A stretch of DNA of 64,000 bases from Colius striatus (taxonomy: Eukaryota; Chordata; Aves; Coliiformes; Coliidae). Made by a program: the position numbers and the translations under genes. Numbering within the stretch: position 1 is the first letter of the stretch; each line of letters opens with the position of its first letter. The notes under the pieces were generated by a model, which worked only from the letters and a program-made list of their open reading frames with translations, searched no databases and was not told the origin of the DNA. Below, piece after piece: positions 29,489 through 52,795 of this stretch. The stretch covers positions 5,898,513 to 5,962,512 of the forward strand of contig NC_084781.1 of the NCBI RefSeq assembly GCF_028858725.1, written 5' to 3'.

Positions 29489-29831
29489 GCCCCCAGGAGC
29501 TTCACAACACGCTGTTAGTGGCACTTGCTGCTGAGTATCTCCCTCGCTAAAACTAACTTGAAGCACACCAACTTTTCAGTCCCTTTTCCAAGTGCTTGCT
29601 GGTCCTCCACAGAAGCCAGTGGCACAAAACAGAACTGTCAGGAGGAAGAAGTCAATTTATTATCCAGGCTAACAACTAAAATAACGATTTGCAACGAGCT
29701 TGTCTTTGCTTTAATAAGTGATGTTGACCTTCCTTATTGATGAGTTTCTTGCTGGTTAACTGTTGAACGATGGCTTTTCTAGTTTGCTTTGCAGTTTGGG
29801 TCTGGTACCCAGTGTATTGGAAGAAAATAGA

Positions 29832-29837
29832 AATAAA
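29832..29837 (+). promoter_or_regulatory. TTC12: TTC12 polyadenylation signal
   Basis: An exact AATAAA lies 344 bases after the TTC12 stop, followed by T/G-bearing sequence (ttgtgagttttaac). It gives a short 3' UTR of about 370 bases. Confidence 0.65.
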
Positions 29838-29859
29838 TTGTGAGTTTTAACTTTGTAGA

Positions 29860-32800
29860 ATCCATTTTCTCCCCCTTCCCCCCCATACTTTTTCTTTGAT
29901 GGCTACATTATCATTTGATATCACATGTGTGGTATCACCTCACCCTGTGCTCAAACCTCATCTTTACCTGCTCAAATAGTTTGGTCTTAATTTCACTAAG
30001 CACTCAGTGATAACTCACGACAATGTGGTTTGTGTAGAAATTGTTTGGCTGTTTATTTTAGTAGGATTTCACTGCCTTTGTAAATTCAGTGGTATCTCAC
30101 AGTCCTTTTACTTGTGTGTGGAGTAGGAACAGCAGTTGACCCTCCTGACCTCACGTGCTTTCTCAAGGCCCCTTCTGTTCATCTCTGATCTCCTCTGCAG
30201 TTGGTCATTTTTTCCAACAAGAACACAGGTGGCATGTCCTTCCAGCATACCCATGTTGTCTGGAGAAGTCCAAAATGAATTAGCACTAATGGCAAGTGTC
30301 ATTTGAAAAGAAAGGCAGTAAAGCTTTGCTCTTACCTCTCGTGTGTTCTTCTAAAAAGGCTTCTGGAAAGCAGATCTGAGCACTCCGGTGGTGCTAACAG
30401 AGGAGCAGCTGTAATACCTCTGGCAGAAGCCTGTCAGATTGAACTTCACAAATAAACAGATGCACACAGACAGAAATCTATACCTAAAGCTTGTAAAACT
30501 GGGGGTACACAAGGACTTTGGCCATAAATACAACACTTCTCTTACTTTTGCCTTGGTTTTGAACACAGGAAACAAAAGAATATATTCCATTTCTATGAAG
30601 AAGCAGAGGCCAGTCATGTTGGACTTAAAAATGGCTCTTCAACATGCCTCTTTGACACCTGGAGGTGTATATTCTGTATGTAATCTTGTCCCTTTGGAAT
30701 GCTGGCTGACAAATTATATGTCATCTCTTTTTCAAAATAGCAACTGAATCATCTTCCCACTTCAGAAGAAGGGAGCTCTCCTGCACCTGGTTTGTCTCCC
30801 CTCACAGTGAAAAGCATCCAACTGATAATCTCACTGTTTTCCAAGTTCCTGCTATTGTCACACCCTTCCTAGATAAATACATAACAAATACTGTGGATAG
30901 AGTTCAGGTACAAATAAGCACCATGATCTAAACCTGACACACACCAAGCATTGCCTTAAGGAAGAAAATGTTAGTGAATCTTGTGTTTATAGAGGCAGGA
31001 TGTCAGAGGGGAGCAGCGGGTGTAATGTGTCACCAGAAAATTACAGGAGAGTCAAAATCATCTTAAAAGCCTAAAAGCTGAATCCTTGGTTTTGACTGAC
31101 AGGCTGGGTTTTGCTTAATGGAACTTTTCACATGCTAGTTGCTGTCATCCCCAGAATAAAATGGTGATCAGCTAAGAGAATTGCTGCTGACTTCCTCCTG
31201 CAGAAGTTGTTTGAGAACTGATTTGTTGTCCTCAAAAAGAATTGCTGTTGCAAAATTTTTATGAGCATGGCAGGTTACCAGGAGGAGCTGTTGCTGTTTG
31301 GGGATGGGAAGTGGACCTGAGCAGTCAAGCAGTTACAGAAGGGGCGTTGAGCTTGTACCATCTGTAGTCCCATTTGAAGAACAAAAAAAGGTGCCAGCAG
31401 CTCCTAGCTGGGAGTTGACTCTGGGTTTATAGATCACTTTTGTAGCATCTTGATACTTGTAAGCCAATTGCACGAGGTTTTATGGTTCAGAAATACATCT
31501 TGAGCAGTATTCAGGTGGTATAACTGATGACAGCCTGTGGGAAGAGACTCATGGCCTCTCAGGGGTAAGTGGTCTGCAGGGCTGAGTGTGCCAGCTGCTG
31601 TTTGTAGTGGGATTGTTTGTTTAGTTCTGAATGTGAAGTTATTTTGTTTTCATTTTGTGTCTGGAAATGCCAGTCAGTGTCATTTTCTTCTTCAGATAAC
31701 TTAGGAAAAGATGAAGTGACCTGACCTTGGTTACCACATTCAGGTGAGTGATATGGCAAGGACTAGAAATGATACCAGTCAGCACCTCGTCTGTTGTGTT
31801 ATCTACCAGACTGAACTTTATCAGTTTGCTGAAAGACGGATAATGGTTTATTGTTATTTCCCTCAGGAGTGATCACCTCGTCCCTGGTGTCTTTTGCAAT
31901 GTTTTTCTAAGCTGTCATTATGCTCCTTCTCTGACTTTTGCTTATTTTTGTATGTATGATTTCCACTGCAGTCACAACAGTCGTGGCTGTGTAATAACGT
32001 TCTCTCTTACCTTAACCTGCATTGTTCTCAGTTTCCCATTTCTGAGAGTTTTGCCCTTGGGTTTGTGCATAGGTGCCTGGCACTGGAAAGGTGCCTGAGG
32101 TATACTGCTTACTATCTTCAGCTGAAGGTTTGCAAGGACACTAGGGCTCTTCACTGTGAAAGGCAGAGGGAGCGTGAGTGCAGCACCTGCCATTCTATGA
32201 TTCTTGTCCCACCAGAATGTTTGGTCAGGGTGCTCTGAGCTAGATGAGATTAGTTGCTCTCCTGTAATCTGCTTCTTTTCAGTGTGTGTTGGTGTTTCTC
32301 TGTGTCTCTTGAATTAAGACCACACTTTGCCAAAGCTTGTAGGCCTAGGGAAGAAAGGGTCCAGCAGGCTTGGTAGCGTGATAAAAGCAGAACCGTCAGC
32401 AGCATTTCTCTGTGGCCTGACCCTACCCAGAGGGTCACTGGGAGAGAATGTCCAGCTTCTTTGGGCTCACAGAGTCAAACATCTACATAAATGGATTGTT
32501 CTAGGGAAGTGTCTCCATCTGGGATCCAGACTGATCTCTGCCTGTGTTTGTCTCAGCACAGACTGGCAAACTCACGTTTTCCACCTCTGCTGGGCACGTG
32601 AACACACTCTCTTCTTTAGTTAAAAACCAAATGGTTCCAATTGGTGCAGGCTTTTGGTTTTTTTTCCTTGGAACAGATTATTGGTTGCTGTCTAGCCTGA
32701 GCTCTTATAAAGTAACCCAATACTCTTCCAGAACAAACACAGCAAGTGTCCCTTGCAGTGACTCCTTAGCAAGCAGCTTCCTATCTGAGTAGGTTGTTAT

Positions 32801-34796
32801 TGGGATGACTCAGGAGCTGCCTCACAAGATGCAGGAAAAACTCCCCATCTTTACTTTGATTGCAGCTGGACTGTTGGATTTATCTGGTGAGCGATGTGTT
32901 CTGTTCTAATCTCAATTGCTATCTTTCTGCCCTATTTTCCTCTTTGAGCGTAGCTTTTCTGCTCACTGATAAATATTGTGCCACCAGCCTCAGATGTGTG
33001 GCAGCAAGGAGATGCTGGAGCAACTTCTCCCTGTGCAGCCGTGTTGGAAGGCTCTAGGTTTGGTTTAAGTGGTTACTGTTGGGAGTATTAGTGGCCCCAA
33101 ATCAGGACATTGCTGTGCTGCTTCCTAAAGCTAAGAGACAGTCCATTCCCCAGAGGATCTATTGTCTCCTTCAGGTGGAGGAAAGCAAAGGAGAAACAGA
33201 CTCGCTTTTCATAAAGCCCATAGCAGAACTGAGGATCAAACTCAAGTCTGCTGAAGCCTTGTGCAGAGCTCCAGTGTTTATGTTACTCATGGAGTCTCCT
33301 CCTCACCATGCAGCAACACATTGTTCTGCGTTTGCTTTAGGAACAGCTGTCCTGCCAAATATTCCTGACAACGGGAAATCCATGATGAGCCTGGAACACT
33401 GTCATGCCTCATGAGTTCCTAGGGCTGCTGTCACCCAGCCAGTCTTTGCTCCCTGCCTCATCATGTGCCTGTGAGCATAACCTGCAAGCTACATGAAATC
33501 GACTTGGCTAATGAAAGCAGCCTTGTGACTTCAGGCAGGCTGTTCAGTAAAGATAAAGGTGGGGCGGTGGCATCAAAGGATTTTGCACCTAATTAGTCAT
33601 TCTGTGATTTTGGTTCCATTTGTTTCACATCACCTTGTCCCCCTGCAAGGTGCATTTGTGGGTAGGCACACCACTTTATAGATCCTCGATTCAGTAAGTT
33701 CTTGTCTTTATGGACAGATCGCCTGTGTTGCTTTGCTGAGTTGGGACTCTGACTTGTTCACACAAAACTCCAAAGTATTTTATAGGTTTAACATGTGAGC
33801 CTCCATCATCTGTTAATTTCCATTTCTGTTTTAATAATATATCAGCGTTTTGGGTTCCCTTATGTCAGCTTATCTTGCTCACCGTTGAGTGACAGTAGTA
33901 CTGGTTCTCCAGATGACCACAGAGGAGTTGTAATCTCCTCTCAGGGCACTGTGCTTAAATATTAACCCCAGGGATTTCATCTGAAGCAAAACTGCTAAAT
34001 CTCTGCTTTCCCTTTGTCAAAACCTGCAATCTAAAGAATCATTGCTTAGCTTTTAGATGCATGTATTTGCTGGCAGGTGCCTAAGAGGAAATGCTTAAAG
34101 TTTTTGGAGCGTATGTTAGTATTGTAGTCCATGGTTTGGATAGTATACTTGGGAATGTCAACCTTCTGCTTGTGAATACAGAAAAAATCAAATGTTTGGA
34201 TAAAACAATAACATTTGAAACCCTATGTCTGCTTCTTTAAATGACAAAGTGTCTGCTTTTGATTTGGCAAGTTGAAAGTTACTATGTTCTGTCTGTGCTG
34301 TGTCACTTCCACAAAACAAACCAGGTTCCTCCTGCCTGGCCACCCAATATGAATCAGGAAACTCATCATAGGACTGGAATACCAGGAGAGGGAGAGCAGT
34401 TAAGGAGAGCCAAGTGAGTGAGCTCATTCATGTACATATTAATCTTGCTTAGCTATAGAAGACCAGCCTGTCTTTAGGCAACCTGAGGGTTTCATTCTCC
34501 CTGCATCCTCAGCTGTCATTTATATCCTTGTACAATTAAAATAAGGGCTTCCTCTCTGGCTGGTTAATGCTTTACATCAGTATGACAGGAGTTTGAAGTG
34601 TCATCCTTCGTATGACACTGCAAATAAACAGCAGAGGGTCAGGTTTGTAGCAGCTGGCTGCAAGAATGGCAGTGCCACAGCTGCCCACCCACCCTGTACA
34701 GTTCTGAACGGAGCCAGTGGCAGCTTAACTTTCTGCCTCCTGCTCAGCCTGATGTAAAGTGCTGCCGAAAGCTCTTACAAGTTCGTGTGCAATTGA
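29860..34796 (+). other. TTC12 to mucin/ZP-gene interval; no coding exon recognised
   Basis: Nearly 5 kb without a recognisable exon. If the downstream giant exon begins at a splice acceptor, a short signal-peptide exon and the promoter should lie here. I looked for an ATG followed by a hydrophobic run ending one base into a codon at a GT donor and found no convincing case. A tiny segment 32865-32892 has acceptor-like and donor-like edges but no support. The interval otherwise holds ordinary A/T-rich sequence and a possible CR1 end near 32.2 kb. Confidence 0.6.
32190..32206 (+). mobile_element. Possible CR1 3' terminus
   Basis: The sequence CATTCTATGATTCT resembles the octamer-like repeats that end CR1 elements, here in + orientation. 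The 200 bases before it could be an old CR1 3' region, but I cannot confirm that by eye. Confidence 0.35.
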
Positions 34797-37700
34797 ATGG
34801 ACAAATGGCTTGTTTTCTTTTCATTAGGTGCCTCCTGGAACGAACATCGTGTCAGTGAAGTATTGGGCACAAGCTTTCCTGGAGAAGCCCAGCCAAGAGC
34901 TGAGAGTAGCCCAGTGCCTAGTGAAGTGTTTTCCATTACAGAAGATAACTGGGATGAGGTGACCTTTAATTTTCAGAGTCCAACAGTTGATCCTGCCAAT
35001 GGAAAAACTGCTGACTTCATTCCTGTCCATACACAGATGGCTGCTAAAAGAACAGCTGTGCTACCTAAGGGGTTGGTTAGAAACTTGGATGTGCCTGAGC
35101 AACCGCACACAGAATCAGCAGCTTTAAAACTCCAGGATGGACACACAGTTCCTAACAAGCCCTTGAGTAGTGTAAGCATCTCTGTCTCCTCACAAGGATC
35201 ACAGGCTACCACACATCTGGAACAGCCAGGCAGGTCCTCGCAAGGAAAACCAGATAATGTTACTGAGGCTGGATTCAGTCCTGCCAGCTCTAGTGCTCGG
35301 CTGCCACAGCCCTTGCTCAGCAAAGGGGGACATCCAGACTCTCCTAAGTTGATAGCTATCACTTCTGTTCCTGTTATCAAGCAGACAGAGGTGCCAAGTA
35401 GTCCTGCAACATCTCCTCTGACTTCAGTGGTAGATTTTCATGCTCCAAGAAAAGAAACAGCTGCATCTCCATTTACCACCAGAGTTAAGATTGCCCTTGG
35501 AAGTGCAAGGGTGGATCAGTTACCAACAGGAACGACTCCCTCTAGCAAAAGGCCAGGAGACACAAATCCACAAGTCCAGCCTGACAGCAAAGCTGCTGTG
35601 ACATTTGCATACCTGAAAGTGACTCGGAGTAAGGACGCTAAAGTTGCAACTTCTGCATTCCTACAAAAGCCAGCTTCAGGGGACCTTAATGCAGGCAATT
35701 CCAGAATGACACAGACAAGCACAGTCCAGTTTTCCTCTATTTTATCTCCGAAGCAAGAAACAACAGGCAGTAAAGCCAGAAACTCAGCAACAGCTGGAAT
35801 AAAGGGTTCTGGACACCCAACCCAGATATCTGCTCTTCAGGCACTCCCGCAAGGCAACATACATTCTTCTTCATTATTGATGCATCTGGAAGCTTTAGTT
35901 CACAATGACTTGCTTTCATCTCCATTTCAAGGGCCTACTAGCACGACTGATAGACAACAGCCCCTCTCTTTGTCCCAGACTCTCAACTGTACTAAACACA
36001 TTTCCCCAGAAACCAACGGGAGCTCTCAAGAAATCGCAGCTCTAGTTTTCCAAAGCGATACTGATCGTTGGATGACGAGTAAACCTGAAAAATCCAGATC
36101 CCCTGAGAGCCCACAGACTTCTGCTAATTCATCCTCGTTCAGCCCGTCGTGGATTTCCACATTAAAGCCTTCCCAAACTACTAAAGAGCTAAAAGGAGTG
36201 ACATCTGCACTTTTCCCAGGGACGTCTACCTTTGAGAACGCAGCCCTTCAACCTGTGAGCACTTCTGATTCTGTTCATGCAGGGCTTCAGCCACCAGGGA
36301 CAGCTTTTCCTACTTATGCTGGATTGCAGCTAATGGGCATCCCTACCTCTGCTGAGAAAGCACTTATATCAACTTCATCCACATCTACTGGTTCTGGGTC
36401 TCGGGTTCAAGGCATTTCTGCACATCCTATATCTCAGGAAGCCTTCCCTATGATGGTGCAGATGAGCACAGTGGAAGGATCCAAGAGTAAGAAGAGTCTC
36501 CCACAACAGATAGGTAAAACTGGTTCTCCCCCACTGACTCCACAAACCCCCCCTGGACTGCATGACAATGGGAACCAGAAAGTTCCTCTTCACAGCTTTA
36601 CCCCTACAGCCTCCCAGATTCAGCGGGCTGTCAGCCTGGAAGCTTTTGCTTCAAAACTGCCCTCACTCCATGCACAGGGAAGTCACTCTGGCTCAACAAC
36701 CACACGTCCCCAGCCAGCGGTGCCTGGCGTTCCTGATGCGATCCCAACACACCTGGCACAAGCACTAACGCAGCTACGTGACACAGCTACCAAAAACCTC
36801 AGTGCCTTTAGAGGTGATCAACTTACAATGCTGTCATCATCCCCATACTTGTCCTTTCTGCTTAAAAGTACTGATGGCATGGTGTGCCTGCAGCCTATGC
36901 AAGATTCCCCTCTACCTACAAAATTCCCAAAAACCAGTGTTGGGAGTCTGGTTTCCATTCAGCAAATCCTGTCAGCATCAAATTCTTCAATGCTGGACTT
37001 TACAGACTTACAGAGTCTGAATTCTTCTAGCTTAATTTTGGTTAAGCCTGTATTTATCCTTTTGCCCACGGACAGGCCAGATTTACAGAGAGTGCCTTCT
37101 TCTGAGGGTGAAGATGGGCACAGAACTGTCCTTGTGTTCACAAACAAGCAAGATCTGAATTTGCATATTCCTGAAAGTAGTCATGATACCCTAGTGAAAA
37201 CTACTTCATCTTACCCCACTAGTCAGTCTCCGAGGTCTGAAACTACTCTCTCCACTGCGTCTGACCAACAAGCAGAGAAACCAAAGGTAACGTCTGAGCT
37301 AGTGCTAACTAATCCTAATTATACAGCCATCACTAATCCTAATTATACAGCCATCACTACTTTGCTTCAAGCTGTTACTTCAGCACCAAATCATTTGCTG
37401 GACCCTCAGATGAGGATTAGCACAACAGTGCAGGCCATGCATCTGCACAGGCTGCCTGGAGACAGGCAGGTACCTGCTCCCAGTTCCCAAGAAGCCAAGG
37501 GAACTGGTCTGCTTTTACTTAGCAGTACAGTAGCAGAGCCGTTCACCTCCACTGCACCACCGTTAGTGGTATCTGCTCAGCACAGCCCCCGTATTTCCCC
37601 CAAGGTATTTGTTACCACAGAAAAAACACATTCTTCTCCTGGAATCCCTCTACTGTCAGCAAAGGGACTCTCTCATTTTCCAGCACCAGCCCAAGCTCCG

Positions 37701-40700
37701 TTTACTGTCCCAGGGGCTCTAGATAAGGTTCAGCACCCTAAGGAAGCAATGCTGTACACTACAGGCCCTCACCAAGGCTTGGTGACCACCCCTTCCTCTG
37801 CCCATGCGCGATGCGCAGCCTGTTTGACCTCGCGTGCAGCTGGAGCCGTAACTTACCCGGTGAAGATGATCACAAGTGCCGTGCCTTTGCGGGCCACATC
37901 GCAAAGTCTCCTCGGTACGGAGTCACTTCAGAGGCAGCCATCACAAGTTCAGCTTGTCCCCAGCACACCACCAGCTTTCCCGGCGCTTGCAGCTGGAGAT
38001 GATCACAAGGATTCAGCAGCAGGCAGCACGGGCTGTTCAGGAGTCGCTATTCGTGCTAAAACAGCACAAACCGCCACCACTTCTATCAAACCTGCTCTTA
38101 CTAAGCATTTGGGATTTACTCCCATTGTTCCTAAGCTGTTTATAATGACAGAGAGACCAACAATAGCATCAGCATATACTCCATTTTCAACAAAGGTCCA
38201 AAAGAAAACGACAGTTTCTAGGAAACTTCTGGCTACACTTACCCATCTGAGGATGTCTAGCAAGTCTCCTGCAAGCTCACCTTCACCTGTGTCTACACAT
38301 GTTCCCATGCTATCAGCCCTGAAAGGTGACCAAATCCTTCAAGCCCATACTGAAATCTTCTCACAGGGCAACAAGGGAGAAAATACAAAGCCAACTGAAA
38401 TCAGCCCAAGTGCAAAAAAAACAGAAAGTGGTAAATTCTTGGGAACAAGCGTATCTCTGTCAGCCACATTTAACACGAGGACACGGCACCCTCCCACAGC
38501 AGCTCTTGAGAATAAGATCACTTTCACCCCAGGACAGTCACCTCAGTCTGCAGGATCCATTATTGCTTTTGAGAAACAGCCTGAGTTGACACAGACCACG
38601 TCACAGTCTCCAGCAGCAATGGCTTCTCATGGTTACATCACTACTTCACTTACAAACAATGAAGCGTTTCACCTGTCGACATCAACACGCCAGTCTGACC
38701 CAAACATGATGCTGTCTACAGTTGCCAGAGTGAACAAGACAGCCGCAGTCCCAACATCAATGGGGAAGAGTGATAAAGTGATAGTGAAAGGAGATGCAGG
38801 TGTCACTAGCCAGCTGCCCTCCGAGGCACCTGTGTCACATCTGGTGTTGGCAAAAGGCCCTTTGGAGAAGGTACTGCTGGAAGGTAACGTTGAACATGAG
38901 ATTGGGCCTTCCAGCCCTGGCACTGTGATGCATGCCACTGAGCCATCGACAGCAAAAGCATTTTCTGTCTCTGCTAACAGGCTTGTAAATAAGGTTGCAA
39001 ATCAGTCAGCTGTTTTCCATAAAGTAGCTGCCAAAGACGCTGAGGTGCTTCTAGACAGAGATCTAATCCAGTTCCTTCCAACCCCAGAGAGCCCCTCATA
39101 CTCTTCTCGGACTGGGGTAGCACTTACATCCCAGCGGGATTCCTTACCGGGTGGTGCAAGCACTGAACAATCTGAGAGGTTGTTGTTGAACACAGAGGCA
39201 GAGGAGATGCTCAGAACAAACGAAGTAACAGGAGAAGCGGCTGAAGGCTTAGGAACCGTTGTAACGCCGCGGGATTCGGAGCCCAGTGCGCTGCTGAGTG
39301 GGTCACATCAGAGGAGGGGTTTGCAGCCAGATGCCGCCGTTCTGAATGGGTAACTGTCTCAGAGCTGTTGCATATTTGTGCTGCATGATTTGAAGATGGG
39401 GGGTTAATAACTGCTCCACGGGCTTGGGAATGTGGGTGTGCTGTGTTGTGGTTTTAAAAACACTTAGTTTGGCAATTGCATTGTATAAAAGGGGGGGCCT
39501 CTTCACATTTCAGATGATAATGCTTCAGACCTACTTTTCTTTTTCACAATAGCCTTTGCCTCTCCTCTCAAAAACAATCTAAGTGCAATTTTGCAGGTGA
39601 GAAGGTTTGATAATGCTCAAAGGTTAAATGTGCTAGCAAACAAGGTAGCTAGGCCCAGGCAGCAAAACAGTTGAAAGTTCCCCTCAATACAAATGAGTTG
39701 ACTTTGTAGAGAGAACACGAGGTGGTTCTGATCGTGGGAAGCTCTGTCATGACATGGTCTATGTGCTGGTCATTTGTTTCAACTTATTGTTTGGTTTCAC
39801 TGAGTGAACTCACCCTACTGCTGTTTTATTCCTAAGAGGCTGCAGAGCCCAACTGAGCCTCAGCTTTTTTTCCCTCTTTCTCTACAGCCTCGCAGTTGTG
39901 AGTGACGATGTCTGTGGCTCCAGCAACTACACCGTGCAGATGAGCCTGCGCCCTGTTGCAGAAGCAGGCCCTGAAGTCGAAGGGTCGGCACCTTCCCAAG
40001 AGACTTTCCTGGCTGTAATCGCTGTGCAGAGCAACAGCAGCCAACTCATGCTCCAGATCCGCTCGTGCTGTGTGACGCCTTCCGCCAGCCCAGGGGGACC
40101 CGGCGCGATGTGCTGCCTGTTGCACAGGTCAGGCATGGAGCTGCAGGGATGAGTGCCACTTCCTACTGCTCTTTGGGAAGGGGCTCATCCTTAGAAGACT
40201 TTCTCTTTTGTACACTGTGGCTGTAGTCCGATCTCTTTGGAGTTCAGAGTAAGCTCAAAGCAATGAGGAGTCCAAGAGTGCTCTGCTCCCTTACTTGCCT
40301 TGTAATTAATACCAAGGTCTTGATAAGACAAAGAACCTTTAGGGGAAAAAAAATCTCCCTTCACCCTTTGATTATGCAACTAAGCCAGCCATCATGCTCC
40401 AGGCTGTGCTGTCACAGATGTCAGGTGTGCAGCATCCTCCTGCGTGTCCTGCTAGGGGATGGCACAGCCCAGGAGAAGAGCAGTACAAGGGCAGGAGACA
40501 GACCTCCATCTCCACCTTGGCATTCCTTGGCTATTCTTGTCTAACCTGACGGGGCTGAGCAGAGGGAAATCGAAGGATTCCTTAATTCATGTTTGTAAAA
40601 CCGCTGGGGCACAACATGTGCCTTAGAAGTGCTGCACATTATTGTTAGTAAATGAGCTTTCTGGTTGTCCCATACTGGCTCTAGCCAGAGGCCACCTCTG

Positions 40701-42719
40701 CAGTGCTGCTGAATTAGTCTAGGTGAGGGAATGATGAGTGGACTGCAGTAGCCATTTTAATAGACAAAGTCATCCTCTGAGAAACATTGGGGCTGTAGGA
40801 CTGTGGCCTCTACAGCAGAGCTACATACAGCCCAAAACGCTGACATTTTGCGACAACTTGTGCAGACCTGTGTCAGCAGAGCCCTCTCAGCCCCACACTC
40901 AGTCAGGAGGAGCTAGAATTTGAAATTATTTGCCATTTGTCATTGCCAGGTTGCCGTTTGAGTGCAGACACATCCAGTTACTGCACAGCAGCAAGTCCAG
41001 GGCTGCTAGCTTCACCATCCAGCTGTTCCAGATGCTGAATCACTCAGTGGCCTACTTGCACTGTGAGCTTAATGTCTGTCTACATGGCAAAACGGGATGT
41101 GAACAGGTATGTGCCACAGGTCCATTCTCAGTGGTCTAAGGAGCTTTTTGAAAGATTTGGTGCTCCCAGCAAGTGCAGTCGATTCAGTAAAGCATCTTGA
41201 TGACAGATGTACGGATCCCCACCATCTTCCAGCTCCTCATACAGTTCTTTCTTAATCTTCTGCATACTTTGTGTCTCCTAAAGCCCCAGCTGAATTTCTG
41301 CCCTTGATTAAGCTGAGCTCACAGTGCTGTGTTTTCACTTTACGTGCAGTCAGCATAAGAAGCATATTAACAAATAAGCATTATATTTCATGTGTCTTTC
41401 CTAGGACTGCCTTGAAAGCACAGAGCCACTTCTGCAGCCAAGTGACAGGAACAGCTATGGAAACCTGCACAACCTGATTTCATTTGGTCCAGTTTTGAGA
41501 GCAAACAACAGGTTTCTATATAAACCTGTGGAAGGTGAGTCTCTTGCTTTTCATTTCTCTCTGTCTCTCTCAACAAAGTTTCTGCTCGATGTCCTGCTAT
41601 AAGAAAAACAGCACACTTTGAACAACTTTCTTGACTGGCATCTAGTATGACCAGATTATATCCTAACAACTCCACCCCTTTATTCTGGCCTTCCTAAATC
41701 CCAAACATGATGGTTAATTGGTATTAGACCTGGTAGACTCTGAGCAAGGAGACACAGCCAATGCATCCTCTGCAGGAACTGAAACTTTAGAAGGAAAAGC
41801 GGGGAGAAAAATACGGCCGAATGTCCTCCAGTTGAAAAGAATTTTCCTGCCCATGGTAGTATTTTGGAGAAACAAAACTGAAGAGGAGAAATGTCATTAA
41901 AATGATTGTGAGACATTGATTCTTTCCTTCAAGTGGCTGGGTTTTAGGTAGGATGAGATAGGAAGGGTCAAGGGGATAGGGAGCTCCTTGGAATTTTTTT
42001 CTTTTAGCTTTGCAGCTTTGAGAATGAAAGAGCAACGTGGTCATTTTTTGTACTGAGTTTAGGGAAGAATCCCCATATTCAGAGGTGGCTACCTGGCACA
42101 GCAAGGAAACTGCACCCACAGGTAACTGAACAGAAATCTGACTTAGGAGCATTAGATGCAGAAAGAGGTTGGTCCTGAGTCAGGAGCGCTTTCTTTTTTC
42201 TTTCTGTTCGTAGGTGAAGTACCGCAGCTGGTTAACGTTAATCAGATGTTGTCCAGCTGTTAGAAAGGAGTGATGCTGAACCTGGTACATATGGGCAAGA
42301 GTCTACTTAAATCCATACCTGGCACCATACCTGAGAGCCACCTAACTTCTTGTGTCTTGGTTTATGCAAAGAATATTTACTGCTGGGAACTTAAGGCAAG
42401 GAAGGTAGTGCATCTGAAAAGCCACTACCCATTCAGACTGCTCCGTGGAAAGCAACCTCGCCATACCTGCTTGGCATGCTATAAAGATGAGTGGGAGTTG
42501 AACCCTCTCTTTCTTCTCCCTTCCTCTCTTAACACTGTTCATTCCTTGATTATTTCTTTATTTCCAGGTCCTGATTCTGCCATGCTGGTACCAATTCTGC
42601 TGGGATCTCTTACTGGCTTTGCTGTCTTGGGCAGCACTTTCATAAGCCTTTGGCTGCATCATAGACAGAAAACCAAAAACATGTGCTATCCACAACTTGG
42701 AGAAATCCATGGCCTGTGA
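34797..42719 (+). CDS. Mucin-like ZP-domain type I membrane protein (5 exons recognised)
   Basis: I do not recognise this as a named gene. The exons are 34828-39349 (or from an ATG at 34797), 39888-40127, 40950-41106, 41405-41534 and 42568-42719. They join in frame to 1743 residues if translation starts at 34797. Order of parts: a possible short signal sequence; about 1500 residues rich in Ser, Thr and Pro with few cysteines and many N-glycosylation sequons (NVT, NCT, NGS, NLS, NSS, NYT, NKT, NQS); a cysteine-bearing module of about 175 residues that matches the C-terminal half of a ZP domain; a transmembrane helix; and a 20-residue cytoplasmic tail. The ZP-C signature is SCCVTPSASP, FECRHIQLL, SFTIQLFQML and VAYLHCELNVC. 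Such proteins are cell-surface or shed glycoproteins. The coding potential is strong: over 1500 open codons and four consistent splice junctions. The function is unknown. Endoglin, betaglycan and other ZP proteins share only the ZP part. Confidence 0.85.
34828..39349 (+). CDS. Giant mucin-like exon
   Basis: A 4522-base exon without a stop. The acceptor 'tgttttcttttcattag' leads into GTGCCTCCTGG, two bases into a codon. The donor is ATGG|gtaact, two bases into a Gly codon. Alternatively translation starts inside the same frame at ATG 34797, giving MDKWLVFFSLGAS, which has the look of a short signal peptide, though the base at -3 is T, a weak start context. The protein is dominated by Ser, Thr, Pro, Ala and Gln. 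Less mucin-like islands are the acidic start (ITEDNWDEVTFNF), a hydrophobic block near 36790-37190 (SFLLKS, SLVSIQQIL, ILVKPVFILLP, VLVFTNKQDLNLHI) and the last 150 residues. Dibasic HQRRG lies about a dozen residues before the exon end. One giant exon for an O-glycosylated domain is usual in mucin genes. Confidence 0.85.
37308..37355 (+). repeat. 24-base in-frame tandem duplication in the mucin-like exon
   Basis: Two perfect adjacent copies of a 24-base unit encode TNPNYTAI twice. Each copy carries one Asn-glycosylation sequon (NYT). Perfect identity suggests that the duplication is recent or is being homogenised. Confidence 0.95.
39888..40127 (+). CDS. ZP-C exon A of the mucin/ZP gene
   Basis: The acceptor is 'ctctttctctacag' and the donor CACAG|gtcagg. 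The first base completes the Gly codon left open by the giant exon. It encodes the first strands of the ZP-C fold: VCGSSNYTVQMSLRPV, ETFLAVIAV, LMLQIRSCCVTPSASP and a CC pair. The pattern of a hydrophobic strand, then 'SC.xTPS', is the hallmark of ZP-C modules (compare the general family form 'CWATPS'). Two sequons (NYT, NSS) are present. Confidence 0.87.
40950..41106 (+). CDS. ZP-C exon B of the mucin/ZP gene
   Basis: The acceptor is 'gtcattgccag' and the donor GAACAG|gtatgt. It encodes RLPFECRHIQLL, SFTIQLFQMLNHSV and AYLHCELNVCLHGKTGC. The 'F.hQhF' strand followed by 'hYLHCElhhC' is the most diagnostic part of the ZP module. It is found in uromodulin, tectorins, betaglycan and egg-coat proteins. 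Confidence 0.9.
41405..41534 (+). CDS. ZP-C/stem exon C of the mucin/ZP gene
   Basis: The acceptor is 'gtgtctttcctag' and the donor GAAG|gtgagt. It begins with DC, giving the last cysteine of the module, then LISFGPVLRANNRFLYKPVEG, which links to the membrane. 'ISFGPV' resembles the hydrophobic external patch region after ZP-C. No clear furin-type RxKR site is seen; the closest is RANNR. Confidence 0.85.
42568..42719 (+). CDS. Transmembrane and tail exon of the mucin/ZP gene
   Basis: The acceptor is 'tatttccag'. The exon completes Gly, then encodes PDSAMLVPILLGSLTGFAV and further hydrophobic residues to ISLWL (about 42580-42655), a basic stop-transfer HHRQKTK, and a short tail ending GEIHGL with TGA at 42717. 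One uninterrupted hydrophobic segment of about 24 residues predicts a single-pass type I protein. Confidence 0.85.
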
Positions 42720-43260
42720 ACTACAAGCAGCTGACTGGTCTTGCAGATCCCACCCCACTGCTAGAATGATCAGAAAAGCAATTGATTTTGCTTTGCACAC
42801 TCTATTGCTTTTGTAGAGCTGCTGCTGAGGCAGCGAGCAACACATCCAATCTCTGCTTTAAGTGTGTCTCTCCTTCATTTCTTTCCTTCTGCATGAGCGA
42901 GTCCACAAACTGCAGAGTACAGAAAGAGCTGTAGTAGTGATCCAGTTATGAAGGGAGAGCAGAGCTTAAAACTCTGTCTGTGCAAACACCAGCACACTGT
43001 CTGTTCACACAAACAGGAAAGCAGATGGGAAAGGGTGCAGAAGAGCCACGTAAAAGAAAGCACTGTAGACTAAAGCTGTGCCACCAAGGAGCCCAGCTTG
43101 ATGGTAATCAAGCATCTCAGTAAAGGGTTGGTCAGCATTGGTCTTGCAGTGAGGGCAGACACAAGCACCTTGGGGTGAGTGGGTTCAGAATCATTGGGCA
43201 GGTTTGGTCAGCAGAAGCATTTTGACCTCTTTTTGGTGAATAAAGCAGATAGAGTGCTAT
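42720..43260 (+). other. Probable 3' UTR of the mucin/ZP gene
   Basis: Untranslated sequence after the TGA, with an exact AATAAA at 43239-43244. Another AATAAA lies near 43675. Either could end the transcript. Confidence 0.5.
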
Positions 43261-46200
43261 GCTGTGATTATGCTTTCAACCACTTTGCAGATGTTTTGTT
43301 GGCACTACAAAGGTCTTGAGTGTCCTGGCAGAATCCTCACTATTTGGCTGTTCATTCTTTCAATGCAGAGGCTGACCAGGGGTGTCAATGTACAGGCTAC
43401 AGGTAACTGTCACAGGGCTTTTCAAGTGTCTCACTTTCCTATGCATGTGATGTGAGCTTTTGGGTTCCTGATGGGGAACAATTTAATGAAGTTGCTTTTC
43501 ACACCATTGCCAGGCAGGTATCAGGTGAGATGGTTGTATCCATCCAGTTAATCTACAGTTTCCAGCTGGCAGAGATGGATGGAAGAACCTCTGCTACAGG
43601 CTGACCTTTCAGTCCTGTGACAAGGGTCAGAGTTGCCAGGAGGTGACAGAGATGCAGCTCCCCTTCTGGAAGGCAATAAACCAACTCTTGCATGTAACTC
43701 TTGGGTAGAGCTTTGTCAGTTGTTCTCAGGTGCCCAAGCAGCATCTCTGCTTGTTACCAACCTGGAAAATATGTCCCACTGCAGTGTTACTGCAGTGCCT
43801 CTAGGAAGGTGGTGTGGGCTTCGAGTACCTGCACACATTTTAAATGTGGAGATTCCTGTTGATGATGACCAAGCCCCTTCCCGTTCTGCTTGTGTGTAAC
43901 CAAACCTCATATTAAAAACAATGCTTTCCTTTGCTTGGGTCCTGTGGGACTGGATGTGATCTCCTTACTGATGCCAATTCCCTTTCCCTGTTCTTGCTTG
44001 TGTTTGCCCAGCACCTTGTGGTGGCTGTGTCGAGTACCCTGAAAGAGGGAGGAACTTATTCTTTCCAAAGGCTTGTGTGCAGTTTGAGTATGGAAAAGGC
44101 TCTGTGCAGGTGCTCGGTCCCTCTGGGAGGACAATGTGTGCTGGGCCCATTTCAGAAGGGAAGCTGGGTCCAGAGCTGCACCCAGCAAGGACCCAGCCAC
44201 ATGCACCAGCAGGCTGTGTTCTGAGTAGCAAATGCAGACAGTAATCACAAATGGTGATTGCACCCGAGACTCTAGAGGATACTGACTGATCCTAAAAGAC
44301 AGTTGTCCCACTGCTATAGAGGGAACTCCAGTAACAGGCTGGGTTTCTGGAATCTGTGAGATTACACAGGAGAAAGGTACCGATGGTGTGGCTGGTACAA
44401 ACAGGTCTTTAAGAGGTGTCAAATGCTTTTGTGACCTGAGGTCCTTGCAGACACTATAGTGACTCCAGGGCTGCACTAGGTAACACACAGCTGCCCCAGA
44501 CACTAAGAAGTGCTACAGCCAGTTCTGTTAGACTGTCCTGCAAAAAAGTACTTGCACAGCAAGAAAACCTGCTCCTGGATGCCAGAGCAGGGATTTGGAG
44601 ACTGCTTTGCTGCACTGGAGCCAGCCAGCATCGTGTTGTTGTCTTGGCTACCCATGTGGTGAGTCGAAACAAGCGGTCCTCGACAGTCCTAGTTGCAGGT
44701 GCAGTGAGTTAGGACAGTGAGGTGTTCCCTAATTGTACCTGAAACTCCTGCTGCCTGGGGAACGTGCCACTGGCTCCAGCTGCCTGGCTTGTAGCCTGTT
44801 CTTGGCGATGGAACCTCAGAAGCATTGTGGCCGAAAGGAAGAATTCCTGACTGAAGGAATTTGTGACTCAGCAGAAGGGTCTCCCTTACCTTGTCTCCCT
44901 TACTCTATTAGACTTAAACTGTTGACCAAGTCTGGGACTAGGTTTGGATGCAGCCACTCCTAGGCTCCTCTCTGAGAAGGAGTTTAGAAAGCAAGGGGGT
45001 CCATTCAGAACCTCATGACTCAACAGGAGGGTCTCCCTTACCCTTTTTGTCTCCAGTCTGTAACAAGTTCTATTAAACCAACCCTACCTTGGTTTCCCTT
45101 TGTGTGTATCTCCCCCGTAGTAAGCTGGAGCCTGAGCCGTACCTTTGACCTCTGCTGAGATTTCCTGTTACAAATGAATATTAAAATCACTTTTGCTATG
45201 ATCTGTCATAGTGTTTCTTTAAGTGATCAGAAACCTACGTCACCCATGTTCAAGTGTGCTCTCCCCTGCTCTGAGTGCTCCTCTTTCAGCAGAGGGGACT
45301 TCAGCCTCTGGAAGAATGTATTCCCCCTCTGTGTCCCCACACAGCTCCTGCTGTCCTTTTCCCAGCTCCTAAGGGCTGGGGGTACCAGATAAAATGCTTT
45401 CTCCAACTGCACATTCCCTGTGTAGCTGCTTTCCTGTCCAACTCTGCTCTGACCAGAGAGGTGGCAGTTTCCAGCTATGACCTCGGCGGCAGGGTGCTGT
45501 TGCAGTGGGAGTGTGGGTGTTTGAGCTGAAGCTGGCAGGGCTGTAGTGCAGGGCAAGGGCATGGAAAAGGTCACTTCAAGAAACACGAGTTGTTATTAGC
45601 AATGGTCCAAATGATTGGCATGACTGCATTTTAATGCCATTGAGGTTTAAACACACTCTGGAGTGTGCCTGAGCTAAGAAATGCAACACACCTGTAATTC
45701 CTGGGGCAACTGAAGCAGCAGCAGCAGTTGTTAGTCTGCAACCAGGGAATGTTTTCCGCTACTCTCTCACTTTCTGAACTTTCTAGAGTAAAACTTGAAC
45801 AGTTCCGTAGCGGTTTGCCCTGCCTGTGCCTGAACACACGGGAATGGAGCGCCAGCGTGCTTGTCCTTGGCTCTGAAGCTGTGTTGGCACATGAGCACCA
45901 ATAAGCAGCAGTGGAGTGGCCGAGAGCAGCACCTGGGCCAGAAGCGTGGCAGCTGGTGGGCGGCTCTTAAGGAGCGTCGGGAAGTTTGCAAGAGTCCTGG
46001 ATCTGACTCTAACGCTGCTTCTCTTCCTAAAAAGCTGCAATCTGGCTGGCTTTTTTTGCTTTTTTTCTTTTCCTAAAGCCTTCCAGCTACGAGCGACAGG
46101 CCTTTGACAGAGCACCTTGTGTCAAATGCAACGGAGAAGTAGCTTCCATTTCCACCTTGATCAGTTTTCCTCCAATAATTTCTTCAGATCTCATATGTAG

Positions 46201-47144: not shown

Positions 47145-50100
47145 ATGACTTTGGAGAGAAACCGGAGACTTGGCAGCTTAACTGTCTTTAATAAGGAGGA
47201 TTTTGAAGAAGATTGGCTAAAAGTGGCCAGCGGGGGCTTTGGGCACGTGTACCAAGTGAAGCACAAGAGGTGGAGAACGGTTTATGCAGTAAAATGCTCT
47301 CCATACCTGCTGCAGGACTCCGGCGTGGAGAGGTAACTATGTGGTCTCTTCTAGCTCGGTAGTTCAGACCATCATTTAGAGCAGTCTGTGGTGATTTGGT
47401 GTTAAAACTCTGAAGGAAACATTCTCATGGCTTCTCCTCCCTTGGAAGTCAGGTTTTTGGTACCAAAAGGCAGTGGAAAAAGCACTAGTGAGTTGAGTTC
47501 TGCTTCTCTCTCTTTCTTGTCTGTATGTGAAAGTGATAAGGGAACACTTACATGTCCAAACAGCTTTGAGGCTGCTCTGACTTACACTTTTTAGCACTCC
47601 TGGTGAGTTCTGGCTTACAAGGCAAGACTCTGCTGTCCTGCTATTTGGCTGTGCCAAAAATCCTTCCTTTCCATGGGGGCTGTATGAAGGGCCAGCATTG
47701 GTCTCATAGTCCTGTGCATCTGGTGGGTGTTGTTCAATGCCTATTTCTTCTTGCCTTAGGCTTTGGCTTTGGCTTCGACTTTTACAAGTGGCAGACCTTC
47801 AGTGTGCAGTTTACTGTGCATACCCACAGAAAACACCATTAAGTGTACAGCATACGAATCTGTCAGGAGCCTTCTCACTTGTATGACATTTTATTGTAGG
47901 GAACCTGTTAGAGGAAGCCTGGGAGGAGGATTGCTTAGATGAACTGTGTTTAGAGCTGTTTGTGGCCTGGCATGATGTTGTTGCAAGCTCAGATTCATTC
48001 CCAGGGTGTGCTTTTTAAATTAACTTTTGGAACTTTACTGCTTGTCTGCTGTCAACATGCTCTGGGCACCCCAACTTGCTCATCAGGTTGGGAAATGCAA
48101 AGATTTAATGAAACAGGTCTGCTAAAACTGGCAACAATGAGCAGACACGTCTAGACTGCCTTCGGGGCCAGATTCACTGTGCTCAAAGAGAGAAAGCTGC
48201 AGGCAAAGGCGCAGGAATAGATACAGGCAGGACATGCCCTCTGGCTGTGCAAGCTTCCATATACTCAGGCTCATCAGGTTAGTGTGTCACTGGACCCTGG
48301 CTGCTTGCAAGCTGTGTGAGGCTACGCCGTGGGTACATGGTGTATGAAAAAGGCACAGCTCACTGTACAGTGCCTACTCCTACCACCATGCTTCCAGAGG
48401 AGCATCACTTGGTAATTTCACCACAGTGTGGAAACAGGCACATGGACAAGGCTTCCTGTGATCACTGAAAGTCTAAGAGCTGGACTAAGAGGGAAGTTTT
48501 AGTCTCTTTCTCTAGGAGCCTAGTGGCTGAATTTGTCCAGATCATCCTCATCTCATTCTGAAAAGTTGTAGCACCCTGTGGATTACAGCGTGCAAAGATC
48601 ATGATGTGGTTGCATTATCACCCATTCAAGGGGCAAATTGGAATGAATCTTTTTGGGGTAGGAAGGGCTGCTTGTAAAGGCTGACTGTCACTAAGCTACC
48701 TTACAGTAATCTAACCTGTCAATCACGAGATGCCATTTCTTGTTTCCACTTGCTCTTTTTTGTTTTTCCAGAGTCAGTATGAACTGTCTAATGGAAGAAG
48801 CAACCAAGATGGAGAAAATAAAGTTCCAGCACATTGTCACTATCTATGGGGTTTGCAACAACCCTTTGGGGATAGTGATGGAGTATATGGCAAGAGGATC
48901 CTTGGAGAAAATTCTTCCCACTCACAAGATGTCATGGCAGCTCAAGTTCCGGGTTATCCATGAGATGGGCTTGGCTATGAATTTCCTGCATAGCATGACA
49001 CCACCTTTGCTGCACCTAGATCTAAAACCAGGGAATGTGCTCCTAGATGGGAATATGCACGTCAAGGTATGACCTTAAAACTTTAATGAAGTTTCAGCTG
49101 GTAGGTACCTCCTCATACCTCGCATCGTGAAGGATGGAGGTATCTCCCAGCTAATATAAGGAGGAGTGAGACTGGGATCGTTACAGATGAAGCTCTCTTT
49201 TGGGTTTTTTTATCTGCTTGCAGATCTCAGACTTTGGGCTGTCAAAATGGATGGAGCAATCTAGCCGAATGCAATATATTGAAAGCTCTGCTTTGAGAGG
49301 CACTTTGAGCTACATCCCCCCTGAAATGTTTCTCCAGAACTGCAAGCCCCCAGGAATCAAATATGATGTGTACAGGTAAAGGCTGCTTCTTTCCTAGTTT
49401 TCCCATTTCTCAAAAAGGTGAAATCAATATGTGAATTTTACTATGGAAGTGATTGCTCATGGTCTCTCATTGCCTGCAGCTTTGGAATTGTCATTTGGGA
49501 GGTACTTATGCAGAAGAAACCTTATGCAGGTAAATATGAACACCTCTTACATGCCCTGCAATAATTAAATGTTTATTACAGCCATCTTCACAGAGGAAAA
49601 TGCCCAGCACATGTTGCTCTTTTTCAGGAGCCAACATGATGGCCATTATAGTCAAGGTTGCAGCAGGAAAGAGGCCCTGCCTAGAACCCATCAGCGATGA
49701 CTGGCCAGGAGAGTGCCAGCAAATGGTTGACTTGATGAAGAGATGTTGGGACCAAGACCCCAAGCAAAGGCCAAGCTTTACAGGTGTAGTAGCTGATTAC
49801 GATAGGGATTAGTCAAGGTTAATGGATTATCAAGTGGGGGATAGGATTGTGTGTAACTATTAGCCAGTTGGGTTGCCTGTTGCCTTGGAAATGCTTGGAA
49901 CTCATTTCTTGTCAATGCATTCTCTGTCTCTCCTTTCTTGCCATGTGGAGAATGTGTAGAAGGCTTTGACAACCTTGGGTACTGACTGGGTTCTGAACCT
50001 CTGGGTAGTCTGCAAAGCTAACAGTCTTTTTGCTCTGGTAGATATCCCTGTGGAAACAGACATGCTGCTGTCACTGATACAAAGCCTTGTAGTAGATCCA

Positions 50101-52795
50101 GAGAACGAACGCCTTGTCAGGAAGATGTCCCACAAGCCTGCCATCTCTGGGAGCCGGCAGGTGAGGAAGGCTTCCCAGTTCACTTGGGAAATTCCCCTGA
50201 GTTCTTTCCCTCTTCTTACTAGTTTCTGAGAACACGTTTCCTCATCACTGTGTATCATCAGACAACAAGGGCACCTCAGCAACCTTTGCATAGGTTGTAC
50301 ATCAGTTGTTTGTTTAGGGAGACAGGTGGGTTTATCATGCAGGCCTCTGTCATTAAGAGAGGCACAAGCAGACGTGGGGGTTCTGCCCATGGAGCTGGCA
50401 TATGTGCTCAGGTGACTATTTTCCAGCTTCATGGAACTGAGGACATTCCAGTTTAAACAACTCTTTGTAGAAGAAAAAATAAGTTTTAAATCCCCACGTT
50501 TCTCTAAGAAAAAACACAGGACAGTCACAGTTTTAGCCCAGTTCCTGGAGTGTAATTGTGCCTAGAAGTCAGCTTCATGCAGGGAGAAGTAGCAGCTGAG
50601 AACTATTGCTGTTTTGAGAATTTGCCTAGTTTTGCAGGCAGCAAGAAACAAGATGCCTGAGCACAGAGGAGGCGGCGGTGTTTGGGTTCCCTGTGCAAAA
50701 AAGAAAATGGCTAGCCAGGATACAGCCATGGGCATGTGCTGCAATAGAGAAGTAGAATATATGCATTTTTGGGAGCAAGTGAGCAAGAGGAGGAAAATCT
50801 CAGTGACAGCCAGAGATCCTTTTCAGGCTCTCGCATTCCTGTTAGTGTCATGATTTGCTCCGTTGAATTTTGGATGCAATAACAGGATTGGATAAAAACC
50901 ACTTGAATGATAATACAAAATTCTAGAGCAGTAGCAAATAACAACTCTGTGCAAACCTTACAGAATGCAAATGAGCAACTTTCTCTTATGTCTTTTTCTT
51001 TTCTCCTTCCTGAAAATGAGAGTGACAAAGAGGAGTTCGCCTATCCCCGAGACACCAGAAGTGCTGGTGAGTAGGAGCCTTTCTTTATAATTCAAAACCA
51101 AAGAAGGAGAAACCTACCAAAAATTCACCTATTTCCTTTTTCTCTGGTGGTAAAGGGTGTGGTTCGAGTCAGTTTTCCATGTGAGTGACTTGTTTTAAGT
51201 TAAGGAAAACAGACTATACAGGAAATAGCAGATATAGTTCCTGTGAGGGAGAGCCCGAATGTCTCACTGCATTCTAAGAGACTGCATGTATCACTCTTGC
51301 CTCATTTCTTATTCCCTATTTCTACAATGACTTTTATCTCATTCCACACTGTGAAGATTCACATGCTCTCGCTTCCATCTTGTGCACACCAAGCTATTTC
51401 AGCTGGTCTTAGTCTCTTTCTCCTATTTTGTTTCCCCTGCCTGTAGAAACTGATAATCGAGAGGTTCGTGTCCCACCTTCCTACGGCGGGGTTGAAAGCC
51501 CAGAGGACGTCCTGTCTGAGGAAATCTGTAGAGTCCATGAAAATGGCCTCACGTTACTTCACCTCATGGTGATCCAGGGAAACCTGGAAAAGGTCAAGTT
51601 TCTCCTGAACTGTAAAGCCAATGTGAACAGCCAGGTGATCTGTGGCTACACCCCGCTCATTATGGCTGTTCAGAAGAGGTCACCAGAGATCTGCTCAGTT
51701 CTGATAGAGCATGATGCAGACGTCAATATGCCCGATGATGATGGTTGGACACCTCTTCACTTTGCCGCTCAGAACGGGGACGACAGGATTGTACGCCTCT
51801 TGCTAGACCACCAGGCACGGGTGAATGCTCAAGAGCACGACGGGTGGACCCCTCTGCACTTGGCATCACAGAACAACTTTGAGAATGTGGCCCGAGTACT
51901 GTTGTCTCGCCAGGCTGACTCCAACACACAGGAGGCTGATGGGAAAACTGCCCTCCACGTGGCAGCTTGCTTTGGACACGTCAGCTTGGTGAAACTGCTT
52001 GCCAGTCAAGGAGCTGACCTGGAGAAAAAGCAGAAGAACCATAGAACCCCACTTCACGTTGCTGTGGAGAGGGGGAAGTTCAGGGTAGTCCATTATTTGC
52101 TGAAGAATGGGACCTCTGTCAACAGCCTGGATCAAAATCATTACAGTGCCCTGCACCTGGCTGTGGTGAGGGGGAAGTATCTCATCTGTGAGAAGCTCAT
52201 CAAGTATGGAGCCAATGTGGAGCTGAGGACAGACAAAGGCTGGACTCCCCTGCATCTGGCTTCTTTCAAAGGACACATTGAAATCATCCACCTGCTAAAA
52301 GACAGCCGTGCCAAACTGAACGCCAAAGGAAGCATGGACTGGACACCGCTTCACTTGGCTACTCGCTACAGCGATGAGCCGGTCGTCTGCGAGCTGCTGA
52401 GATGTGGGGCAGATCCCAACAGCGCTGAGAAGTCCCAGTGGACCCCTCTCCATTTTGCAGTCCAGCGAGGCTCCTTTTTGACCGTCATCAACCTTCTGGA
52501 GTGTAAGGCGGACGTCAACGCCAAGAACAAAGTGGGCTGGACACCCTTGCACCTTGCTGTGCTCAAGGGCAATATGGCCATTATAAAGACCCTGATTAAG
52601 GCTGGTGCTCTGCTTGACGTGGAAGATATCACTGGCTGTACAGCCCTGCAGTTGGCAATTAGACATCAGAGAGAAAACATCATTAGGCTGCTTCAAGGCA
52701 AGGACTCCTTGATGAATAAATCAGGGAATAGGACTCTAACAAACGATGCTAAGATTTCAAGACCCAAATTTGTTCCAGGAAGGACAGATTTGTAG
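47145..52795 (+). CDS. ANKK1: Ankyrin repeat and kinase domain-containing protein 1 (8 coding exons)
   Basis: ANKK1 is a RIP-family Ser/Thr protein kinase related to RIPK4. The exons are 47145-47332, 48772-49066, 49224-49375, 49480-49529, 49628-49783, 50042-50160, 51021-51066 and 51447-52795, all GT-AG and in frame, giving 784 residues (human 765). Kinase landmarks: glycine loop SGGFGHV (residues 29-35), VAIK-type Lys50 in YAVKC, helix-C Glu in LMEEATKM (71-72), catalytic HLDLKPGN (144-151), DFG (164-166), IPPE (192-195) and the RCWDQDPKQRPSF end. A linker of about 90 residues leads to twelve ankyrin repeats (about 368-760). The start ATG at 47145 is chosen because MTLERNRRLGSLTVFNKEDF aligns with the family start. 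The in-frame sequence before it has no ATG that fits better. DRD2 is the expected convergent neighbour. Confidence 0.95.
47333..48771 (+). other. ANKK1: ANKK1 intron 1
   Basis: A 1.4-kb intron separating the glycine-loop/lysine exon from the catalytic exon. No additional exon was recognised. The open frames seen in it are short and lack family resemblance. Confidence 0.8.
48772..49066 (+). CDS. ANKK1: ANKK1 catalytic-loop exon
   Basis: The acceptor is 'tgtttttccag' and the donor GTCAAG|gtatga. It encodes the helix-C region, the hinge (GIVMEYMARGSLEKIL) and the catalytic loop HLDLKPGNVLLD. The usual HRD arginine is Leu, as in human ANKK1 and RIPK4, so this is a family trait and not damage. 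The catalytic Asp146, Lys148 and Asn151 are kept. Confidence 0.95.
49224..49783 (+). CDS. ANKK1: ANKK1 activation-segment and C-lobe exons 3-5
   Basis: Three short exons (49224-49375, 49480-49529, 49628-49783) encode ISDFGLSKWMEQSSRMQY, the activation segment ending SYIPPEMF, the F-helix DVYSFGIVIWEVL and the C-lobe end VDLMKRCWDQDPKQRPSF. The 50-base exon 4 joins its neighbours exactly (AG|C and G|GA). All conserved C-lobe positions appear intact. Confidence 0.94.
50042..51066 (+). CDS. ANKK1: ANKK1 linker exons 6-7
   Basis: Exons 50042-50160 and 51021-51066 encode residues 281-335, between kinase and ankyrin domains (DIPVETDMLLSLIQSLVVDP, then SDKEEFAYPRDTRSAG). Exon 7 is only 46 bases. 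Its acceptor 'cctgaaaatgag' has a short pyrimidine tract, so its exact start is the least certain junction in the gene, although the phases agree. Confidence 0.75.
51447..52795 (+). CDS. ANKK1: ANKK1 ankyrin-repeat exon
   Basis: A single 1349-base exon encodes residues 336-784, with twelve consecutive ankyrin repeats of 33 residues. Most carry the TPLHxA helix start (GWTPLHFAAQNGDD, GWTPLHLASQNNFE, and so on); the first (LTLLHLM) and last (CTALQLA) are degenerate caps. The acceptor is 'cccctgcctgtag'. Lys720 (AAG at 52598-52600, context LIKAGA) sits at the position I align to human Glu713. The stop is TAG at 52793. Confidence 0.96.

Follow-up and report, generated by a model that had tools for sequence, protein, structure and literature searches.

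Transmembrane mucins of the MUC1/3/12/13/16/17 type have a long Ser/Thr/Pro-rich ectodomain, a folded juxtamembrane domain and one transmembrane helix. Uromodulin and GP2 carry a full ZP module and are GPI-anchored, and uromodulin is cleaved and polymerises. Polymerising ZP proteins are typified by a dibasic, furin-like site downstream of ZP-C and ahead of the membrane anchor, although uromodulin itself relies on a different protease. Cleavage of polymerising ZP proteins releases the last β-strand of ZP-C. Betaglycan is a membrane protein without a mucin ectodomain.

Papers cited here and below by PMC number are represented by excerpts. In betaglycan and TGFBR3L, which span the membrane once, a ZP domain lies in the C-terminal region (PMC7795056). 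Egg-coat families named so far include ZP1-4, ZPD, ZPAX and ZPY (PMC6262864), and egg-coat ZP proteins carry the full ZP-N/ZP-C module (PMC13361971). Across jawed vertebrates DRD2 is flanked upstream by ANKK1 and TTC12, a conserved arrangement in which the excerpt names no further gene (PMC5900934). In the open-licence literature searched, we recognised no description of a ZP or mucin gene between TTC12 and ANKK1, nor did we meet a ZP-C placed next to the membrane on a mucin-like ectodomain.

A five-exon gene between TTC12-like exons and ANKK1

The window, the whole stretch of 64,000 nucleotides analysed here, comes from Colius striatus (G000:C29:5898513-5962512; the genome searched comprises 1.21 Gb in 191 contigs). 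It contains a five-exon gene on the + strand, running from 34828 (or the ATG at 34797) to 42719 (Table 1). Joining the exons yields a single frame of 1,743 codons whose only stop is terminal, with no internal stop or frameshift. As the original prediction had proposed, the four introns are all GT-AG and keep one frame (phases 2, 2, 0 and 1; lengths 538, 822, 298 and 1033). Two of the four donors, GTAACT and GTCAGG, depart from the consensus GTRAGT.

The open Ser/Thr/Pro-rich exon of ~1500 codons that had been predicted was borne out: its 1,506 codons contain 0 in-frame stops, against 69 expected from composition, and the other two forward frames contain 67 and 101. Shuffling gave a longest + strand open reading frame of 223 codons (100 Markov-1 shuffles of 33001-44000), so the intact frame lies well outside what chance would give. 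Relative synonymous codon usage, measured against the ANKK1 ankyrin exon, was 0.56 for the large-exon frame and 0.57 and 0.46 out of frame; it could not tell the frames apart and was not counted as evidence. The 538-base intron between the mucin-like exon and ZP-C has stops in all three forward frames. Across the whole window, Rfam returned nothing reaching its gathering score.

Table 1 Features of the mucin/ZP-C gene, in window positions.
Feature	Position	Strand	Remarks
Candidate signal-peptide exon	32829..32886	+	MQEKLPIFTLIAAGLLDLS; donor GTGAGC, phase 1; upstream ATG at 32805
Large mucin-like exon	34828..39349	+	codons counted from 34830; open frame extends upstream to ATG 34797
ZP-C exon 1	39888..40127	+	donor phase 2, like paralogues
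ZP-C exon 2	40950..41106	+	carries SVAYLHCELNVC core; donor after Cys-x-x, phase 0
ZP-C exon 3	41405..41534	+	last Cys and NLISFGPVLR strand; without K/R-K/R or K/R-x-x-K/R
Transmembrane segment, 20-residue tail, stop codon	42568..42719	+	
First AATAAA 3' of stop codon	43239..43244	+	weak evidence; motif common (61 in window, 31 expected)

The start given by the original prediction, ATG 34797, is doubtful. This ATG lies within a pyrimidine-rich run that ends CATTAG at 34827, and at 34827/34828 TTTTCTTTTCATTAG followed by GT resembles a splice acceptor of phase 1. Judged from these letters, the ATG probably sits inside a splice acceptor, and the true start would lie in an upstream exon. Splicing the candidate signal-peptide exon (MQEKLPIFTLIAAGLLDLS followed by G) to 34828 would read ...LSGA-SWNEH. 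Two such candidate donors occur in the interval 29548-34797, and one or more appear in 13% of 300 Markov-2 simulations, so we regard this exon as suggestive only.

The gene lies where it had been predicted, between TTC12 and ANKK1. Upstream, TPR- and Arm/HEAT-type stretches, all below Pfam cut-offs, presumably belong to TTC12, as their position also indicates. Downstream, a kinase stretch at 48710-49069 exceeds the Pfam cut-off, a second at 49191-49376 falls below it, and the open reading frame 51413-52792 holds 11 ankyrin stretches; from this domain order we take these to be ANKK1. The Pfam scan of the neighbourhood matched five of ten stretches, and the other five gave nothing. Beyond the window, two 7tm_1 exons (L034 and L035) lie on the minus strand; we assume them to be DRD2-like. 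Further upstream, where the end of NCAM1 is expected, window positions 7348-8274 hold a 309-codon Ser/Thr/Pro-rich open frame with no Pfam match, presumably an NCAM1 exon specific to a long form.

Since a single 7.2 Mb contig spans the TTC12-like exons, the gene, ANKK1 and the DRD2-like exons, misassembly is unlikely. In searches of the genome, both the ZP-C and the opening 475 residues of the large exon matched at this place only (E up to 0.001; among 15 and 21 candidates scored, respectively); the identities of 89-96% returned for ZP-C result from matches extending beyond exon ends. A known gene misplaced by assembly error, which the original prediction had named among the things that would overturn it, was rejected: no near copy was found among the candidates scored, and the three best ZP-C relatives in the genome are 21-29% identical.

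A Ser/Thr/Pro-rich region of modest mucin character

The first 1,518 codons contain 13.6% Ser, 10.7% Thr and 9.1% Pro, with 11 N-glycosylation sequons and five cysteines only. Ser, Thr and Pro together make up ~33% of the large exon, which is modest for a mucin. This composition suggests that the predicted protein would be O-glycosylated and located at the surface. BLAST self-comparison of the large exon gave no internal repeat at E 1e-3, and Pfam gave no match at E up to 1. Using phmmer with a less Ser/Thr-rich part (36600-37500), we obtained one match, to a bacterial protein, at E 0.44.

Reading the same exon by eye, we noticed a 24 bp in-frame tandem duplication on the + strand at 37308-37355 (TNPNYTAI twice). 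The duplication keeps the frame and is a possible site of length polymorphism.

The membrane end carries ZP-C, and scans for ZP-N were negative

The original prediction described a gene with a ZP module, three of whose exons encode ZP-C. The ZP-C part held: once joined, the last four exons scored 29.8 bits with PF00100 ZP-C, against a curated cut-off of 24.6. This was the sole Pfam match at E up to 1, and no SEA or EGF domain was found next to the membrane. Compared with solved structures by phmmer, the ZP-C scored best with uromodulin (34.1 bits), second with GP2 (26.1 bits) and 14.8 bits with TGFBR3 (E 0.14). Six uromodulin cysteines fall within the aligned stretch: five align in column, and for the sixth the query has a Cys four residues off. 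The strand NLISFGPVLR resembles what we take to be the external hydrophobic patch of uromodulin.

The predicted transmembrane exon was likewise supported: after ZP-C comes a hydrophobic stretch with a 19-residue mean of up to 1.85, followed by a basic tail. Residues 1519-1743, from the start of the ZP-C exons to the C terminus, contain no K/R-K/R or K/R-x-x-K/R; a protease of another specificity might still cleave the protein.

The N-terminal half of the module did not appear. Pfam found no ZP-N in the large exon and none in the 20 that were scanned of the 65 upstream stop-free stretches (at least 28 aa), a scan that a ZP-N split across short exons could escape. As a positive control, the same scan detected ZP-N in three of three paralogue exons. 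The upstream scans returned two chance matches below cut-off, DUF995 (E 0.18) and MRF_C2 (E 0.12). Within the stretches scanned, the gene thus appears to carry no more than half a ZP module, the ZP-C part.

Shared introns point to the uromodulin/tectorin/UMODL1 branch

We compared the gene with its paralogues in the same genome, taking donors from DNA and not from transcripts. A PF00100 search gave at least 27 matches from 33 candidates; the window's own exons are absent from these matches, so the number is a lower bound. Of 15 loci with an exon ending inside ZP-C, 14 have the first ZP-C intron at the same place, in phase 2 and with a GT donor; the gene's own donor there is CAC AG followed by GTCAGG, also phase 2. 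This intron is general to most ZP genes of the genome; it also occurs in L004, L007, L009, L014 and L016, which we take to be egg-coat genes. The 15th locus, L024 (G000:C3:36937979-36938179), reads GG followed by GCAAGT at the shared site and has one TGA near the 5' end of the match; it is perhaps a GC-AG intron or a decaying gene.

The second ZP-C intron belongs to a subset of loci. Eleven loci hold the second half of ZP-C, and in all four that were checked (L017, L018, L021 and L023; L019, L028 and L029 were left out) the intron is in phase 0, two codons past the distal Cys. Three of these are presumably TECTA-like (L018), uromodulin (L021) and UMODL1-like (L023). The gene's own second donor, TGT GAA CAG followed by GTATGT, is in phase 0. 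Four genes on C10, which we assume to be DMBT1/CUZD1-like, read through the site of this phase-0 intron. The betaglycan gene, L008 (165.9 bits to TGFBR3), runs unsplit across the site of the first. Both the phase-2 and the phase-0 intron are present, as in the uromodulin/tectorin/UMODL1 branch, and we infer that the gene descends, introns included, from this branch. Because its ZP-C introns match those of same-genome paralogues in place and phase, we take it to be a real ZP-family gene and not an artefact.

Several of the compared loci have features of their own. The C10 genes (L006, L010, L011, L013 and partners) form a cluster of four related ZP-C genes over ~88 kb on one strand (G000:C10:34675178-34763129). 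In the uromodulin gene, ZP-C exon 2 (L021, G000:C16:2102588-2102740) lies within a 1,942-codon open frame, perhaps repeat-driven, and nearby L032 translates to Pro/Ser/Gln/Cys-rich repeats. We assume that cupulin is ZPLD1. The printed cupulin antibody peptide (excerpt of PMC4219815) is contained in L019.

At the level of residues, the kinship is distant. The three best ZP-C relatives in the genome are 21-29% identical over 86-100 residues, the best being a UMODL1-like gene on C1 (~91.27 Mb; 24% identity, 50-52 bits). When ZP-C was compared by BLAST with 12 paralogue pieces, with composition correction off, 11 gave a match (all but L019), some over 16-45 residues only. In a tree of nine rows with no starred branch, the query sits on a long branch and its UMODL1-like placement is weak (81/79), a hint only. 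That the ZP-C core and five of six uromodulin Cys columns are kept at 21-29% identity argues for long selection.

Comparison with described systems

The UMODL1-like C1 gene has the same two ZP-C introns in the same phases, and a Ser/Thr-rich stretch before its ZP-N was seen by eye. Pfam matched three of six stretches there, with WAP and EGF_CA upstream of the ZP-N and ZP-C stretches; these would form one gene, which we name UMODL1-like on the assumption that this set of stretches identifies it. Unlike the mucin/ZP-C gene, it has ZP-N, WAP and EGF stretches, and no giant mucin exon was seen in the 50 kb viewed on its strand (L040 left out).

Uromodulin and GP2 are the best solved-structure matches, and the uromodulin gene of the same genome (C16) shares the two ZP-C introns. 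The mucin/ZP-C gene differs from both in its transmembrane segment and in that no ZP-N and no dibasic site were found. The egg-coat ZP families have ZP-C in common with it, but again neither a ZP-N nor a dibasic site was found in the gene. Transmembrane mucins share the Ser/Thr/Pro-rich region and the transmembrane helix, as judged from composition and hydropathy only; the gene has ZP-C in place of SEA or EGF, and no PTS tandem repeats were found. Compared with betaglycan and TGFBR3L, the match is weaker, and TGFBR3 of the same genome lacks an intron at the shared ZP-C site.

A membrane mucin anchored by ZP-C is the favoured reading

The predicted protein runs from a long Ser/Thr/Pro-rich region through a ZP-C of the uromodulin/UMODL1 type to one hydrophobic segment and a 20-residue tail. 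We consider it probable, with some reserve, that the gene is real and encodes a type I transmembrane mucin with a juxtamembrane ZP-C, residing on an epithelial or oocyte surface and not polymerising alone. Stiffened by O-glycans, the ectodomain would form a brush at the apical surface of an epithelium, oocyte or follicle, and ZP-C would act as a folded juxtamembrane anchor, the counterpart of the SEA or EGF domains in other membrane mucins. The last β-strand of ZP-C (FGPV) would stay in place, so that the protein remains membrane-bound without polymerising by itself. At the cell surface it could serve as a docking site for partners that bear ZP-N.

The protein could instead be an egg-coat or apical-matrix component. 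It would then have a ZP-N of its own or borrow one and, after cleavage ahead of the membrane, enter ZP filaments such as those of the vitelline membrane. Its ZP-C is indeed nearest to uromodulin and UMODL1-like sequences, and uromodulin, like the tectorins, is a builder of extracellular matrix. A review notes tube-shaping ZP proteins in C. elegans with ZP-N or ZP-C on its own (PMC13361971). Uncharacterised proteins are listed in two bird vitelline-membrane proteomes; in the excerpts of both, however, 'ZP domain' is absent and we recognised no such protein, which is weak evidence against this reading (PMC6992205, PMC7652871). The scanned stretches contain no ZP-N and we found no dibasic cleavage site, so the egg-coat role that the original prediction offered is less favoured in its classic polymer form, and a matrix role in general seems unlikely to us. 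A further function offered there, growth-factor binding, would make the protein a co-receptor for ligands of the TGF-β family such as inhibin, with ZP-C binding and the mucin stalk presenting, like betaglycan or TGFBR3L. The latter is a predicted single-pass protein of 316 residues that resembles the C-terminal part of betaglycan, where the ZP domain lies (PMC7795056), and the ZP-C of the mucin/ZP-C gene does match betaglycan weakly. Uromodulin and GP2 both score higher, however, and the phase-2 ZP-C intron is missing from the genome's own betaglycan gene. Membership of the betaglycan group was rejected on sequence (14.8 versus 34.1 bits) and intron structure (L008 unsplit), and we hold the co-receptor reading to be quite improbable.

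That the gene is decaying or non-functional, or an artefact of annotation or assembly, would fit with codon usage that fails to single out the reading frame and with two off-consensus donors. Against this stand the 1,743 codons without internal stop or frameshift, the GT-AG introns, the conserved ZP-C core and intron phases, and a 7.2 Mb contig with the expected neighbours; we give this reading very little credence.

With the transmembrane mucin preferred, a broader proposal can be made only tentatively. The gene may possibly represent an undescribed class of membrane mucin that uses ZP-C without ZP-N as its juxtamembrane module, that belongs to the NCAM1-TTC12-ANKK1-DRD2 cluster of birds and perhaps other non-mammals, that was lost toward humans and that docks ZP-N matrix proteins. 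RefSeq or Ensembl may well list the gene already, whether as an unnamed model or as a 'mucin-like' one. The TTC12-ANKK1-DRD2 interval is much studied in human genetics, and an intact extra gene within it would mean a gain or a loss. If ZP-C without ZP-N does sit on a mucin stalk here, the gene would offer an uncommon natural experiment on the function of ZP-C by itself.
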